Positions 7,838-11,729 of a stretch of 11,729 nucleotides of DNA are shown here, piece by piece. Within the stretch, counting starts at the first letter, position 1; each line of letters opens with the position of its first letter. The stretch lies in the NCBI GenBank assembly GCA_945947845.1, contig CAMEZN010000016.1, forward strand, positions 1 to 11,729. Reading direction: 5' to 3'. Origin of the DNA: an uncultured Mucispirillum sp. GTDB taxonomy: Bacteria > Chrysiogenota > Deferribacteres > Deferribacterales > Mucispirillaceae. Under the pieces are notes generated by a model that was not told the origin of the DNA, did not search any database, and saw only the letters and a program-made list of their open reading frames with translations. The translations under genes and the position numbers were made by a program.

Positions 7838-8611
7838 ATGCTTGAAGATATACAAAGCTCAAAAGATACAAGAAATATTGATATAGACCAAGTTGGCATA
7901 AAAGATATTGTCTACCCTATATCTTTAAAAGATAGAAATAAAGGTATTCAGCAGACAACTGCTAAAATAACAATGAGTGTAATGCTTCCGCACCAGTATA
8001 AAGGCACTCATATGTCAAGATTTATAGAAATATTAAATAAACATAAAGATAATATGGATATTCATAATGTAGGCTCTATTTTGCAGGATATGCGGGAAAG
8101 ACTTGCATCTGATTCGTCATTTATATCATTATCCTTTCCTTATTTTATGGAAAAAACAGCCCCAGTTTCTAAAATGAAATCTCTTATGGATTATAACTGT
8201 GAATTTTCAGGCAGCTGTTCAGAAAAAGGGCTGGATTTTGTATTAAAAGTAAAAGTGCCTGTTCAGTCATTATGTCCATGTTCAAAAGAAATATCAGAAT
8301 ATGGAGCACATAACCAAAGAAGTATAGCTTCTATATCTGTTCGTTTTAATAAAACTGTATGGATAGAAGATTTAATAGAAATTGCAGAAAGCTCAGCAAG
8401 TTCGTCTATTTATTCTCTTTTAAAAAGGGAAGATGAAAAATATGTTACAGAATATGCATATGATAACCCTGCTTTTGTAGAAGATATTGTCCGCAGTTTA
8501 GCAGAAAAACTTATGCAGGATGATAGAATAACATGGTTTGAAGTAGAATGTGAAAATATGGAATCAATTCATAACCATAACGCATGGGCTAGAATTGAAA
8601 GAACAAAGTAA
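7838..8611 (+). CDS. folE2: GTP cyclohydrolase FolE2 (type IB)
   Basis: FolE2 converts GTP to 7,8-dihydroneopterin triphosphate, the first step of folate synthesis, and also feeds queuosine synthesis. It is the alternative to zinc-dependent FolE and can use other metals. The 257-residue product has the usual length. Seen in sequence: the N-terminal VGIKDIVYPISLKD, the family signature VQSLCPCSKEISEYGAHNQRS with metal-ligand candidates Cys146 and His158, and C-terminal [19 protein letters not shown] 7838 lies 9 bases after the preceding stop codon, with only a weak ribosome binding site. A second, diverged copy of its last 213 bases lies at 10482-10694. The gene here appears intact. Confidence 0.95.
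   Translation: MLEDIQSSKDTRNIDIDQVGIKDIVYPISLKDRNKGIQQTTAKITMSVMLPHQYKGTHMSRFIEILNKHKDNMDIHNVGSILQDMRERLASDSSFISLSFPYFMEKTAPVSKMKSLMDYNCEFSGSCSEKGLDFVLKVKVPVQSLCPCSKEISEYGAHNQRSIASISVRFNKTVWIEDLIEIAESSASSSIYSLLKREDEKYVTEYAYDNPAFVEDIVRSLAEKLMQDDRITWFEVECENMESIHNHNAWARIERTK
8399..8611 (+). repeat. Long direct repeat, left copy (folE2 3' end)
   Basis: This is the left arm of a 213-base direct repeat whose right arm is 10482-10694. The arms flank the membrane-protein gene and the Fn3-like fragment, 1870 bases in all. Homology stops sharply after the folE2 stop codon on the 3' side and at about codon 188 on the 5' side. Confidence 0.85.
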
Positions 8612-8629
8612 ATAAAAGTGAGGTCTAAT

Positions 8630-10129
8630 ATGGCTCAGTATAGATATTTATACTTTGTAGCTGCTGTTTCTTTTTTAGTATCAATTTACCTTATTAGTTT
8701 TTCAATTTATAATTTTCCTTCAGCAGATGATTTTGTATATGGTTCAAAATACTCATTAAACTCATTTTCTTTGGCAATAAATAGTTATTTATATGGTTCA
8801 AGTGGCAGGGTATTTTCTAATACTCTTTATTATTTTTTTGCTGGTATTTCAAATAATCATCTTATAATTTATCAAATACTACCTATTTTGACTTTTATTA
8901 TGTTTGTTATTGTCAGTTATATGCTTTTTTTTATTATATTACAATCTTTTAGTAAAAAAATTGTATTTTCATTAACCTGCATTTTTATACTTGTATGGTT
9001 ATTAAGTCTTAATTCTATGAATGACACTGTATTATGGTATGGTGGAATATTTAATTATTTTTTACCAATGACATTAATGTTTTTAAGTATATATCTTTTT
9101 TTAAAAGCATATTATTCAAAAAGTATATCTTATATAATATTTATGCTTTTTCTTTCATCTGTTATTCTTTTTATTTCTTCTTTTTCTAATGAAGCATTGT
9201 TTTTAGTATTTTTAATTATATATTTTTTAATATTTTTTTATAGTATTATTTATAAAAATAATAGAATAATATATATGCTTATATTAAATATTTTAGTATT
9301 AATTATTGCATTTATATTTATACTTTTTGCACCCGGAAGTGCTAATCGAGTGGGTGGGGGAAATACTAATTTATTATTTGGTATATACAGAGGGTTAATG
9401 ACTGCTTTGGAGCGTGGTTTTTCTTATTATTTTACAACTGCAGTAATTCCTTTATCAATATTTTTATATCTTATATTTTATAAAATAGAACCAAAAAGAT
9501 TTTTTCCTAATTTATCATATAAATATCATGGTGTTATATTTTTAGTATTAGGTATAATTTTGAGCTGGGCTGCTCATTTTGTTGTTTCTTATGGACTTGG
9601 AGCACTGGGACTTCCTCCAAGAGCTAAAGTTATACCTCAAACTTTTTCAATTATTACATTTACTGTTAGTAATATTTATTTTTTATATTATTTTAATTTT
9701 TATAAAAAATTTTACAATAATAAAAGGAAATTTATTATTTTTATTTCATTATATGCTTTATTTTCAATTAGTAATTCAGATGATTTTACAGGCTCAATAA
9801 TTAGTCTTGGGGAACATAAAGGATATTATGAACAGTCTAAAACACGTCTTGATTTTTTAAAAATTGCTGAAAAAAATAAAGATGAAATCATTTTAAAGAA
9901 AATTGATGTTGCACCATATCCTATTGCTCCAATTGATGAGCGAATGATTAGAAGTGATTGTAATTATTATGTTAATACCCAGCTTGCTTATTACTTTAAT
10001 TATAAAGGTTGTATAAGGTTAGAAAATGGAATAGATGGTGAAGACTCTAGTTCTAAAAAGTTTTTTAGAACTAAGGATTACATTTTAAAAGATGGGGCAA
10101 GAATTTGGATGTATAGTCTATTTAAATAA
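8630..10129 (+). CDS. Polytopic membrane protein, GT-C / DUF6056-like
   Basis: The 499-residue product has roughly ten to twelve hydrophobic helices and a soluble C-terminal tail (about 410-499). After helix 1 it carries SADDF (Asp33-Asp34), then a conserved-looking SGR (58-60), NEA (187-189) and APGSANR (234-240). An acidic pair right after the first helix plus an APGxxxR segment resembles GT-C-fold glycosyltransferase-like families such as DUF6056, suggesting transfer of sugars from lipid carriers at the envelope; the assignment is from memory of the family and moderate. ATG 8630 with GAGG (8620-8623) 6 bases upstream is better than GTG 8618, which precedes that site. It is more T-rich than its neighbours, partly because of its hydrophobic content. 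A fragment related to its C-terminal tail lies at 10954-11127. Confidence 0.8.
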   Translation: MAQYRYLYFVAAVSFLVSIYLISFSIYNFPSADDFVYGSKYSLNSFSLAINSYLYGSSGRVFSNTLYYFFAGISNNHLIIYQILPILTFIMFVIVSYMLFFIILQSFSKKIVFSLTCIFILVWLLSLNSMNDTVLWYGGIFNYFLPMTLMFLSIYLFLKAYYSKSISYIIFMLFLSSVILFISSFSNEALFLVFLIIYFLIFFYSIIYKNNRIIYMLILNILVLIIAFIFILFAPGSANRVGGGNTNLLFGIYRGLMTALERGFSYYFTTAVIPLSIFLYLIFYKIEPKRFFPNLSYKYHGVIFLVLGIILSWAAHFVVSYGLGALGLPPRAKVIPQTFSIITFTVSNIYFLYYFNFYKKFYNNKRKFIIFISLYALFSISNSDDFTGSIISLGEHKGYYEQSKTRLDFLKIAEKNKDEIILKKIDVAPYPIAPIDERMIRSDCNYYVNTQLAYYFNYKGCIRLENGIDGEDSSSKKFFRTKDYILKDGARIWMYSLFK

Positions 10130-10481
10130 CTATGTTCATGCAGAAACAGATATTTTTTAGATACTTTTTTATTTCTAACTGTGGCAAGTTTAAAATTTAT
10201 GCAGTTATCATCTTTGGCAGTATATCTAAATAATTCTACATCAACTTGTTTAATAAATTTATCTTTATCATTTTCTGTAATATATATTATATTTTGGGTT
10301 ATTTTTTTCTTTATCCCATGTTAATACAATATCATTTCCCTTACGTTTTACTACAACATTTTGAGGGGGCAGGTTAAGAGTGCTTGTATCTCTTTTAAAA
10401 TTCATTTGATAAGGAATACCAGTATTATTATCTTTATCATAAGGCATTGCAATAACAGAAAGTGTGGCAGAATTAACTGGC
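10130..10481 (-). pseudogene. Frameshifted fragment of an Fn3-like protein gene
   Basis: Read on the minus strand, from 10481 downwards, one frame gives [19 protein letters not shown], then LPPQNVVVKRKGNDIVLTWD and KYNIYY before a stop at 10268-10270. A shift of frame near 10275-10290 restores TENDKDKFIKQVDVELFRY and AKDDNCINFKLATVRNKKVSKKY. Together these read as the end of one fibronectin type III-like domain and most of another (the LTWD and YNIYY strands are typical). There is no start codon at the 5' side, which ends abruptly where the folE2 copy begins. The 3' side runs without a stop into the end of the membrane-protein gene. It is a fragment cut at both ends with at least one frameshift. 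Fn3 proteins of this kind are usually exported, but no signal is left to see. Confidence 0.7.
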
Positions 10482-10694
10482 AGTTCATTAATTTATTCTC
10501 TTTTAAAAAGAGAAGATGAAAAATATGTTACAGAATATGCTTACGATAACCCTGCTTTTGTAGAAGATATTGTCCGCAGTTTAGCAGAAAAACTTATGAA
10601 AGATGATAGAATCACATGGTTTTTGGTAGAATGTGAAAATATGGAATCAATTCATAATCATAACGCCTGGGCAAGGATAGAAAGGAGTAAATAA
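10482..10694 (+). pseudogene. Duplicated 3' end of folE2
   Basis: These 213 bases align without gaps to 8399-8611, the last 70 codons and stop of folE2. I counted about 21 mismatches by eye, so identity is near 90%. Sixteen codons differ; twelve changes are synonymous and four change a residue (Ser to Leu, Gln to Lys, Glu to Leu, Thr to Ser). The fragment lacks the SLCPCSKEIS...GAHNQRS catalytic region and so cannot be an active cyclohydrolase. An open frame can be extended back to GTG 10464, but those bases belong to the opposite-strand Fn3-like fragment and there is no good ribosome binding site. Confidence 0.88.
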
Positions 10695-10714
10695 TAGTAA
10701 AATATTCAGATTGT

Positions 10715-10734
10715 CGAAAAAATACATTTTTTCG
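10715..10734. repeat. Hairpin 1: perfect 8-bp inverted repeat
   Basis: CGAAAAAA (10715-10722) pairs with TTTTTTCG (10727-10734) around the loop TACA. It is 20 bases after the stop of the folE2 fragment. The T run is inside the stem, so it is not a typical terminator. Confidence 0.6.
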
Positions 10735-10746
10735 TTAGTCTTTTGC

Positions 10747-10782
10747 CAGCCTAATAATGCTCTTAAGCATTTTATTAGGCTG
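10747..10782. repeat. Hairpin 2: long near-perfect inverted repeat
   Basis: An 11-bp outer stem, CAGCCTAATAA (10747-10757) with TTATTAGGCTG (10772-10782), encloses a 4-bp inner stem TGCT/AGCA, with a CTTA loop and a two-base bulge. No T tract follows on either strand. Confidence 0.7.
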
Positions 10783-10788
10783 TAAGGG

Positions 10789-10823
10789 TAACTAAACTTG
10801 GATACATGCTCCAAGTTTAGTTA
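10789..10823. repeat. Hairpin 3: perfect 14-bp inverted repeat
   Basis: TAACTAAACTTGGA (10789-10802) is the exact reverse complement of 10810-10823, with a 7-base loop TACATGC. No U-rich tail follows. Possible meanings are an end of a lost mobile element, a recombination site or a transcript-stabilising hairpin. Confidence 0.75.
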
Positions 10824-10953
10824 AACAGATTAATTTTTAATGCAAACAATATTTCTTATTATAAGTTTAAAATAATCAATAACTTTTTTAACAGTCTGAA
10901 ATATTATTATATCATTTATAATAAATATTTGTATTATGCTGCTTTTATTTCAT

Positions 10954-11127
10954 TTAGATGTTTTCCCATACCTAGCTCTAATTGATGCAAGCATAATTAG
11001 AGATGATTGTCAGTATTATGTAAATATAGTATCGGATGGTATCAATTCTACATCTAAACAATATTTCAGAACTAAATATTATATTTTAAAAGATGGTGCA
11101 AAAATTTGGCTATATAGCTTATTTAAA
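10954..11127 (+). pseudogene. Remnant of a second membrane-protein gene (C-terminal tail of the GT-C-like family)
   Basis: The frame reads LDVFPYLALIDASIIRDDCQYYVN, then SDGINSTSKQYFRTKYYILKDGAKIWLYSLFK. It matches the tail of the gene at 8630-10129 (IDVAPYPIAPIDERMIRSDCNYYVN ... SKKFFRTKDYILKDGARIWMYSLFK) at roughly 60% of residues. About 17 residues between YYVN and DG are missing here. The stop after LFK is lost (TAA became TAT), and the frame runs on to 11148. All of the membrane helices are absent. An ATG at 10936 lies just upstream but has no ribosome binding site that I can see. It is a decayed paralogue or a diverged copy of the same gene. Confidence 0.75.
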
Positions 11128-11148
11128 TATTTTTATTTACACTTTTAG

Positions 11149-11180
11149 TAGTTTAAATTTCATTCAAATTAGTTTAAATT
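11149..11180. repeat. Pair of 11-base direct repeats, 21-base period
   Basis: TAGTTTAAATT occurs at 11149-11159 and again at 11170-11180. The start-to-start distance of 21 bases is two helical turns, upstream of the promoter at 11204. It could be a tandem operator for the lipoprotein gene, but it is AT-only apart from one G per copy. Confidence 0.4.
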
Positions 11181-11263: not shown

Positions 11264-11729
11264 ATGAATAAAAAAGTAATATTTTATATCTTATTAATGT
11301 TTAGCATTTTTGGATTATATGGATGCGGTAGTGAAGATAGTAATGTATCTGCACCTTTTGAAGAACAGATAGTTATATTTTTTGACTGCACAACAAATCT
11401 AGCAGATGTAAAATGTTCTGTTACAAAAGAGTATATTCCAGATAATATGAAAGTATTAGAATATTATTGGGATTTTGGAGACAGTAAAGGAGCACAAGGT
11501 AAAGATAATGGCAACCATACTTATGATGTATCAGGTAAATATAATATATCATTAAAGATACAATATAAAGAAAATGGCAATCCATTAACAAAAGAAATAG
11601 GTACAAAACAAGTTAATATATCTATTCCAGATACAGATAATGGCACAACCAGTCCAAATGAAATAGAAATATTATTTGACTGCACAACAAATCTAGCAGA
11701 TGTAAAATGTTCTGTTACAAAAGAGTATA
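11264..11729 (+). CDS. PKD-domain lipoprotein, 3'-truncated by window edge
   Basis: ATG 11264 follows AAAGGAG (11252-11258) by 5 bases. The product opens with a lipoprotein signal peptide: MNKK, a hydrophobic core, then the lipobox LYGC with Cys21 as the lipidated residue. It should therefore be anchored to the inner or outer membrane and face the periplasm or outside. Residues about 37-130 form a PKD-like beta-sandwich, with FFDCTTNLADVKCSVTKEY, then YYWDFGDSKG and HTYDVSGKYNISLKI; WDFGD and the H-TY-G-Y pattern are the PKD hallmarks. A linker (DTDNGTTSPNE) leads to a second unit starting with the same FDCTTNLADVKCSVTKEY at residue 138. The frame is still open at 11729, so more repeats may lie outside. 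Such proteins often act in surface adhesion or carbohydrate and protein binding. Confidence 0.85.
   Translation, partial: MNKKVIFYILLMFSIFGLYGCGSEDSNVSAPFEEQIVIFFDCTTNLADVKCSVTKEYIPDNMKVLEYYWDFGDSKGAQGKDNGNHTYDVSGKYNISLKIQYKENGNPLTKEIGTKQVNISIPDTDNGTTSPNEIEILFDCTTNLADVKCSVTKEY
11381..11435 (+). repeat. PKD repeat unit DNA, first copy of the identical core
   Basis: The 55 bases from 11381 are identical to 11675-11729, where the window ends. The period is 294 bases, exactly 98 codons, so the repeat keeps the reading frame. Identity across every visible base, including third positions, indicates recent duplication or gene conversion. Confidence 0.9.

Follow-up and report, generated by a model that had tools for sequence, protein, structure and literature searches.

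A probable recombination scar at a variable cargo slot beside folE2 in Mucispirillum

Two folE2 ends at one locus

The window analyzed here is the whole of one contig (C16, 11,729 bp) from a fragmented genome (336 contigs, 75% complete) whose nearest relatives are Mucispirillum. Its plus strand carries an intact folE2 gene encoding GTP cyclohydrolase FolE2 (7838–8611; Pfam GCHY-1, 3e-100, and a site table), followed by a gene for a DUF6056 membrane protein (8630–10129, plus strand; Pfam E 1e-15) whose predicted model is GT-C transferase-like. Next, on the minus strand, lies a frame-shifted 3′ fragment of an Fn3-like lipoprotein gene (10131–10491), which runs into a displaced second folE2 3′ end, hereafter tail B (10482–10694, plus strand), a direct repeat of the end of the intact gene. 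Comparison with the sequences of relatives places a microhomology junction, CAGTTCATTAA (10481–10491), where the lipoprotein fragment and the folE2 tail meet. Judged by sequence comparison, the locus is probably a scar left by recombination at a slot with variable cargo. The genus comparison drew on nine further genomes (G001–G009), eight with folE2 and one (G002) without; G003 and G004 are close relatives of the window's genome, and G009 is a more distant, Mucispirillum faecigallinarum-like genome.

A repeat search returns the two folE2 ends as a direct, ungapped repeat (8384–8611 and 10467–10694; 228 nt as extended, 88% identity, start spacing 2083), of which the convincing part is 8399–8611 and 10482–10694, with 21 differences in 213 bases and no gaps. 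This agrees with an earlier reading of the letters alone (the sequence-only reading), which had described the last 213 bases of folE2 as repeated gap-free 2083 bases downstream. In a search of its own genome the second copy scores E 2.2e-79, far beyond chance, and no third copy was reported. When nine candidates were scored per genome, a second tail was found in none of the eight folE2-bearing relatives among the nine genus genomes searched, and the same search recovers the window's own second tail; the extra folE2 matches in G005 and G009 are pieces of only 37–39 bp. The two-tail arrangement, which the sequence-only reading would have counted against itself had all relatives shared it, thus occurs in 0 of 8.

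The differences between the tails fall in 16 codons, 12 of them silent and four replaced (S>L at the junction codon, Q>K, E>L, and T>S), exactly as an earlier hand count had it. Of the 66 codons that follow the junction codon, 14 differ, 11 of these silently, and the differences at codon positions 1, 2, and 3 number 2, 2, and 14. When 18 changes were placed at random in this sequence (one half transitions, the other half to any base), the mean was 3.7 silent codons, with 11 or more in 0.015% of 20,000 draws, so that the silent excess whose absence would have spoken against the sequence-only reading is present. Tail against tail, dN is 0.028 and dS 0.52, like species-to-species values in the same stretch. 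Because the differences are mostly silent and dN/dS is species-like, the two folE2 ends appear to have diverged mainly inside functioning genes, as had been proposed from the letters.

This pattern bears on another history, in which the unit of folE2 tail, DUF6056 gene, and lipoprotein gene was tandemly duplicated within one lineage and then decayed. Such a duplication would yield the order observed here, with a lipoprotein 3′ fragment followed by a folE2 tail and then a DUF6056 tail (the remnant at 10936–11148 described below). However, the differences between the folE2 tails are mostly silent, and many of them are standing differences between species rather than departures from a local ancestor; moreover, the two DUF6056 tails are only about 80% alike, while the folE2 tails are about 90% alike. 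We consider local duplication very improbable.

Trees of the upstream genes jag-TPR and yidC place the window with G003, G004, and G007 (support 98/98 and 89/92, respectively), and for jag-TPR an approximately unbiased (AU) test rejects a grouping of the window with G009 (p 0.006). Within folE2, sites were taken as diagnostic where G003 and G004 agree but differ from G009; at these 81 sites the intact gene has the close-relative base 55 times, the G009 base 16 times, and neither 10 times. The last five diagnostic sites (8516–8590) are all G009-type; in shuffles, a terminal G009-type run of at least five arose in 0.016% and any such run in 1.1%. The gene is mostly G003/G004-like from 7838 to 8504 and G009-like, of apparently imported type, from 8505 to 8611 (plus strand). 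Over its last 104 coding bases (8505–8608) it has 2 differences from G009, compared with 11 from G004 and 14 from G003, a preference for G009 of 9. The largest such preference among 7,234 overlapping upstream windows of 104 nt, counted where all three genomes can be compared, is 6; on the end-trimmed count used for those windows the intact 3′ end has a preference of 7, since G003 counts 9 there.

The switch of type falls inside unbroken folE2, between 8504 and 8516, as expected at the homologous end in homology-facilitated illegitimate recombination (HFIR), a process in which, according to one study, one end is homologous and the other is joined at a microhomology, of 3–10 bp in most cases (PMC3240628). 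Next to it lies the likely exchange interval, 54 bp identical in both tails (8462–8515, plus strand, equal to 10545–10598 in the second copy), and because of this identity the exchange is placed most simply there. The sequence-only reading had proposed insertion through the folE2 3′ end, which holds, but had taken the displaced tail to have diverged in another strain or an older duplicate; with 2 differences against 11 and 14, the foreign signal lies mainly in the end of the intact gene, and the earlier view of the foreign end was probably inverted.

At the five diagnostic sites of the right half at which the intact gene is G009-type, tail B is of close-relative type throughout. Along its length it is a mosaic, of G009 type at 10544, of close-relative type at 10574–10613, and outgroup-like at 10623–10625. 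A leucine at the WFLV position also occurs in the protein record P0135 (nine of 120 listed folE2 relatives were inspected), so that this residue is polymorphic among working folE2 genes. Tail B is plausibly the resident's former folE2 3′ end, which would fit its position in front of other cargo.

The lipoprotein fragment, the junction, and related records

The inverted fragment between the tails, already seen as Fn3-like in the sequence-only reading, is the 3′ part of an Fn3-like lipoprotein gene, intact relatives of which are located between folE2 and argH. The fragment directly abuts the DUF6056 gene, an arrangement also seen in G006 and G008. Compared with G009 it has deletions of 1 and 2 bases and is therefore frame-shifted. 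Its identity is 92% to contig C19 of G009, 80% to G004, and 79% to G003, whereas the lead of G009 over G003 in 693 upstream windows of the same length never exceeds 0.014 identity. A search of the window's own genome for argH and the missing part of the lipoprotein gene, with the best 40 of 171 candidates scored, found only the fragment itself.

At its far end the fragment is fused to folE2 sequence through a microhomology of about 11 bp (10481–10491), with one base differing in the window. The counterpart in the folE2 gene of G009 is CAGTTCATCAA, and those in intact lipoprotein genes are CAGTTCATCAA (G007) and CAGTTCGTCAA (G009). This length is slightly above the 3–10 bp of most HFIR cases, and the joint is of the kind expected at the illegitimate end of that process. 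The junction pattern had 0 matches in viral contigs.

With the 76-aa reading frame across the junction as query, a search returned the record P0001, also of 76 aa, whose two-member cluster comes from two contigs, of up to 3,138 bp. P0001 has the same lipoprotein-derived start residues, the same junction leucine, and the same end (WFLV...IERSK), and apart from the start codon it differs from the window at 5 of 76 residues. It has NITQ and Q, which are G009-type folE2 residues, in place of the window's SLAE and K, which are of close-relative type. The cluster is unlabelled for source, as are the clusters with a window protein, and one of its members may be the window's own. Most simply, the junction would have had one origin and be present in more than one strain, with one tail since exchanged with a working folE2 allele.

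P0001 bears directly on whether the locus is an artefact of assembly or binning, in which the slots of two strains were joined in one metagenome contig. The state of the genome (336 contigs, 75% complete) leaves room for such an error, both type switches lie in or beside the 54-bp stretch that is identical between the tails, and in the G009 assembly itself two contigs each carry their own version of the slot's right flank. However, the join of lipoprotein fragment and folE2 shares only about 11 bp, which should be too short for the usual assembler overlap, and the same join with a different mosaic tail in P0001, possibly from the same sample, argues against assembly error. An artefact was a serious candidate before P0001 was found, and in view of that record we regard it as improbable.

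The same record lends some weight to another history, in which the junction is older and inherited and the tail mosaic stems from later gene conversion, either between the intact folE2 and the displaced tail or with the folE2 genes of other strains. Because P0001 has the same junction and end but a G009-type middle, at least one of the two tails was most simply rewritten afterwards, and the mixture of G009-type, close-relative-type, and outgroup-like sites in tail B is in keeping with such rewriting. Later conversion alone, however, leaves unexplained why a foreign tract at the 3′ end of the intact gene stands in the same block as a foreign-type lipoprotein fragment. We consider this history unlikely.

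A further record, P0121 (11 members, with the representative on a 2,000-bp contig), was returned by a search with the DUF6056 protein. It equals the window's protein over residues 1–493 bar one residue and then ends in LYSLFKYFYLHF, the ending encoded by the downstream DUF6056 remnant. This suggests that P0121 may be a resolved form of the locus in another strain, in which recombination between the two DUF6056 ends removed the debris; exchange between strains would yield the same structure equally.

The variable slot and the right-hand cargo

For seven of the nine relatives a single contig spans the interval from folE2 to the convergent Fn3-like lipoprotein gene, and what lies there differs among genomes. 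In G003 it is 81 bp without a gene; in G006 and G008 a DUF6056 gene is its sole content, and in G001 that gene is broken. G004 has two neighbouring GmrSD-type proteins (L103 1231–5168), G007 two PKD-type proteins, and G009 on C19 a sulfatase, a protein without assignment, and a Mac-1-like protein. G005 shows folE2 and the start of a DUF6056 gene before its contig ends, and G002 the right side only. On a second contig of G009, C61, stand a broken DUF6056 gene, a PKD lipoprotein, and another lipoprotein–argH pair; the two right-flank versions in this assembly may reflect a mixed assembly or a second locus. Compared with these slots, the left part of the window reads as a G006/G008-kind slot that breaks off within the lipoprotein gene, and the right part resembles a C61-kind slot that starts inside folE2.

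Three details of these slots are recorded here in their own right. The GmrSD-type neighbours in G004 are a possible defence pair. The Mac-1 family match in G009 (L003 13345–15042) lies two genes downstream of the sulfatase and has a Listeria-Bacteroides repeat. The lipoprotein–argH pairs of G009 (C19 and C61; L003, L106, and L131) comprise one of G009 type and one of close-relative type, with different cargo.

The sequence-only reading had called the gene between the tails a GT-C-like membrane gene. Its membership in the DUF6056 family is borne out by the family match; the possible GT-C likeness comes from a low-confidence predicted fold, whose best structural matches are membrane glycosyltransferases, enzymes of the GT-C type. 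A sequence search of solved structures with the DUF6056 alignment gave nothing credible (best E 0.63), and NCBIfam has no name for the protein.

The same reading had likened the locus to islands at tRNA or guaA ends, which raises the possibility of an integrase-driven island with the folE2 3′ end as its attachment site. As such an island would leave it, folE2 is intact at one border, and a displaced tail lies at the other. However, no tRNA was found in the window or in the seven stretches scanned from relatives, and no integrase among the scanned proteins. These were three window proteins and seven from relatives (the flanking lipoprotein among them) in one scan, and seven further window proteins and two of G007 in another; they include three window proteins and eight from relatives that lie in or next to the slot, and they cover the slot up to the contig end. 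The repeats, moreover, are 213 bp long, about 90% alike, and mosaic rather than short and identical as attachment sites would be, and folE2 is present in a single copy in all eight folE2-bearing relatives, whatever the cargo. We give an integrase-driven island next to no chance.

Beyond tail B, the window continues with an interspersed structured repeat of 195 bp (10706–10900), which has inverted ends (TCAGATTGTC...ACAGTCTGAA) and an RNA fold z of -7.9; Rfam gave no match in the window, this element included. A search with window positions 10690–11150 found matches in all ten genus genomes. With the best 40 candidates scored per genome, so that counts are lower bounds, near-full copies occur in seven of the nine relatives (G001, G002, G003, G004, G006, G008, and G009) and short matches only in G005 and G007, and no other near-full copy was found among the candidates scored in the window's own genome. 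Both ends could be located in 16 of 21 copies tried (the window's and 20 matches). Eight of these 16, some of them close kin, are flanked by an identical direct repeat of 10–28 bp, compared with 6 of 240 cross-pairings; the copy in the window lacks a flanking repeat of this kind. The flanking repeat is often a whole terminator-like hairpin on both sides, and the element itself has three conserved hairpins, with 5 of 39 pairs changed on both sides. Together, these features suggest a repeat that may be mobile, with insertion at terminators, which are duplicated in the process; the literature searched held nothing pairing Mucispirillum with miniature inverted-repeat elements.

The element is followed by the 3′ remnant of a second, diverged DUF6056 gene (10936–11148, plus strand; a repeat of the first gene at 79% over 95 nt, and a 63% amino acid match). 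Last comes the gene for a PKD-domain lipoprotein (11264–11729, plus strand; Pfam PKD_4), which matches the full-length relative on contig C61 of G009 and leaves the contig inside an internal repeat. This gene contains near-identical 67-bp repeats (96%; 11369–11435 and 11663–11729), and the contig ends exactly in the second of them, where the assembly probably broke.

An exchange between species and its known counterparts

The best explanation of the locus, to which we assign a probability of about 0.60, is the scar of an exchange between species, in which a segment from a G009-like Mucispirillum entered a resident folE2. The incoming segment would have carried the DUF6056 gene flanked by the final ~100 bases of folE2 on one side and by the 3′ part of the convergent lipoprotein gene on the other. 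Homologous recombination with the resident folE2 within ~8462–8515 would have left the gene whole with a foreign 3′ end, and the other end of the segment would have been fused, at the ~11-bp microhomology (10481–10491), to folE2 sequence slightly upstream of the exchange point. Tail B would thereby have been left in front of the resident's own cargo, namely the structured repeat, the DUF6056 remnant, and the PKD lipoprotein. The proposal builds on the types along the intact gene, the resemblance of the lipoprotein fragment, the microhomology, and the junction residues found again in P0001. From these we infer the direction of transfer, from a G009-like donor to the host, and from its position between its neighbours, the DUF6056 gene would have arrived together with them.

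The segment may have been a linear piece, as in HFIR, or a circle that entered by a single crossover, or it may have come from a donor in which the junction already existed. The circle and the ready-made joint would give nearly the same product, and tail B offers one informative site in its left half, not enough to separate them. A single-crossover circle would leave a reciprocal mosaic, with resident type on the left and donor type on the right in one copy and the opposite in the other. The first copy shows its part clearly; tail B is donor-like on its left at one unambiguous site (10544), and on its right it is resident-like at the five diagnostic sites yet about equally distant from all three genomes overall. 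ComEC was matched in 10 of 10, DprA in 9 of 10, and Ku in 0 of 10 genus genomes, a pattern compatible with DNA uptake and RecA-type recombination without end joining. The main text of a paper on gene transfer in Mucispirillum schaedleri mentions neither competence nor natural transformation (PMC5285517).

Several observations weigh against an exchange of this kind. First, the sequence types are defined by only two close relatives (G003 and G004) and one G009, and in a tree of folE2 7838–8503 (six rows, without G005, G006, and G008) no sister of the window has support, while G007 pairs with G009 at 94/94. Thus folE2 has recombined elsewhere too and its types are not clean, and this result lowered our confidence slightly, to the value given above. 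Second, tail B over the 104 sites is about equally far from G003 (13), G004 (15), and G009 (14), has the leucine codon and other bases found in outgroup genomes, and in its left half is of G009 type, outside the microhomology, only at the one site already named. Third, a tree of the lipoprotein fragment supports the window with G009 at only 82/83, and an AU test does not reject a grouping of the fragment with the close relatives (p 0.24); for this reason the tree was dropped as proof of transfer and, as the lipoprotein gene alone proves none, the argument there is one of distance. Fourth, G009's own slot on C19 has no DUF6056 gene. Finally, ComEC and DprA also match in most control genomes, for example Escherichia coli, and classical HFIR usually deletes recipient DNA, whereas ~213 bp are duplicated here.

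A broader reading, which we hold to be rather unlikely, treats the folE2 3′ end as a portable homology arm with which a ~2-kb unit cycles cargo through the slot without an integrase. The unit would comprise the folE2 tail, the DUF6056 gene, the lipoprotein fragment, and its own microhomology joint; it could enter any Mucispirillum folE2, restoring the gene, and could leave by recombination between tails. P0001, with the same joint and the tail of another allele, and P0121 would then be other states of the cycle.

If the exchange between species is correctly read, it seems to have been caught in a little-studied gut genus with both joints readable and the supplanted 3′ end apparently still in place. 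The locus shows how conserved genes that flank a cargo slot can become mosaics, which is a warning for trees based on folE2. The junction can also be followed in strain collections, where displaced ends may prove to be passive debris or to be still recombining with the live gene. The process is known and this instance is apparently new; the literature searched held no paper on both Mucispirillum and folE2.

Counterparts have been described in several bacteria. In transformation-made merodiploids of Streptococcus pneumoniae, incoming DNA that in part repeats chromosomal sequence can likewise produce a tandem duplication with a new junction, but that duplication is 107.4 kb and pairs through incomplete IS861 copies (PMC3784515). 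Variable segments in E. coli, Staphylococcus aureus, and Streptococcus pyogenes share with the Mucispirillum slot a variable content between conserved flanks, and for those of E. coli the authors think illegitimate recombination likely; the segments are mostly 20 to 500 bp, as against whole genes and several kilobases here (PMC2884548). The type VI secretion system effector modules of Vibrio cholerae displace one another in sequence: a new module anchored in a conserved upstream stretch shifts older 3′ parts downstream, where they remain as orphans, and for these orphan arrays the authors propose an HFIR-like process (PMC5361080). Unlike that system, the folE2 locus has no toxin–immunity logic, and the displaced piece is a housekeeping gene's own end, with no evident benefit. 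With HFIR itself the locus shares one homologous end, one microhomology joint, and a gain of foreign DNA, and it differs, besides the net duplication, in a gain of ~2 kb, here deduced from sequence, compared with a mean of ~1 kb (PMC3240628). The most economical account is thus one homologous exchange and one illegitimate joint, as in HFIR or a relative of it.

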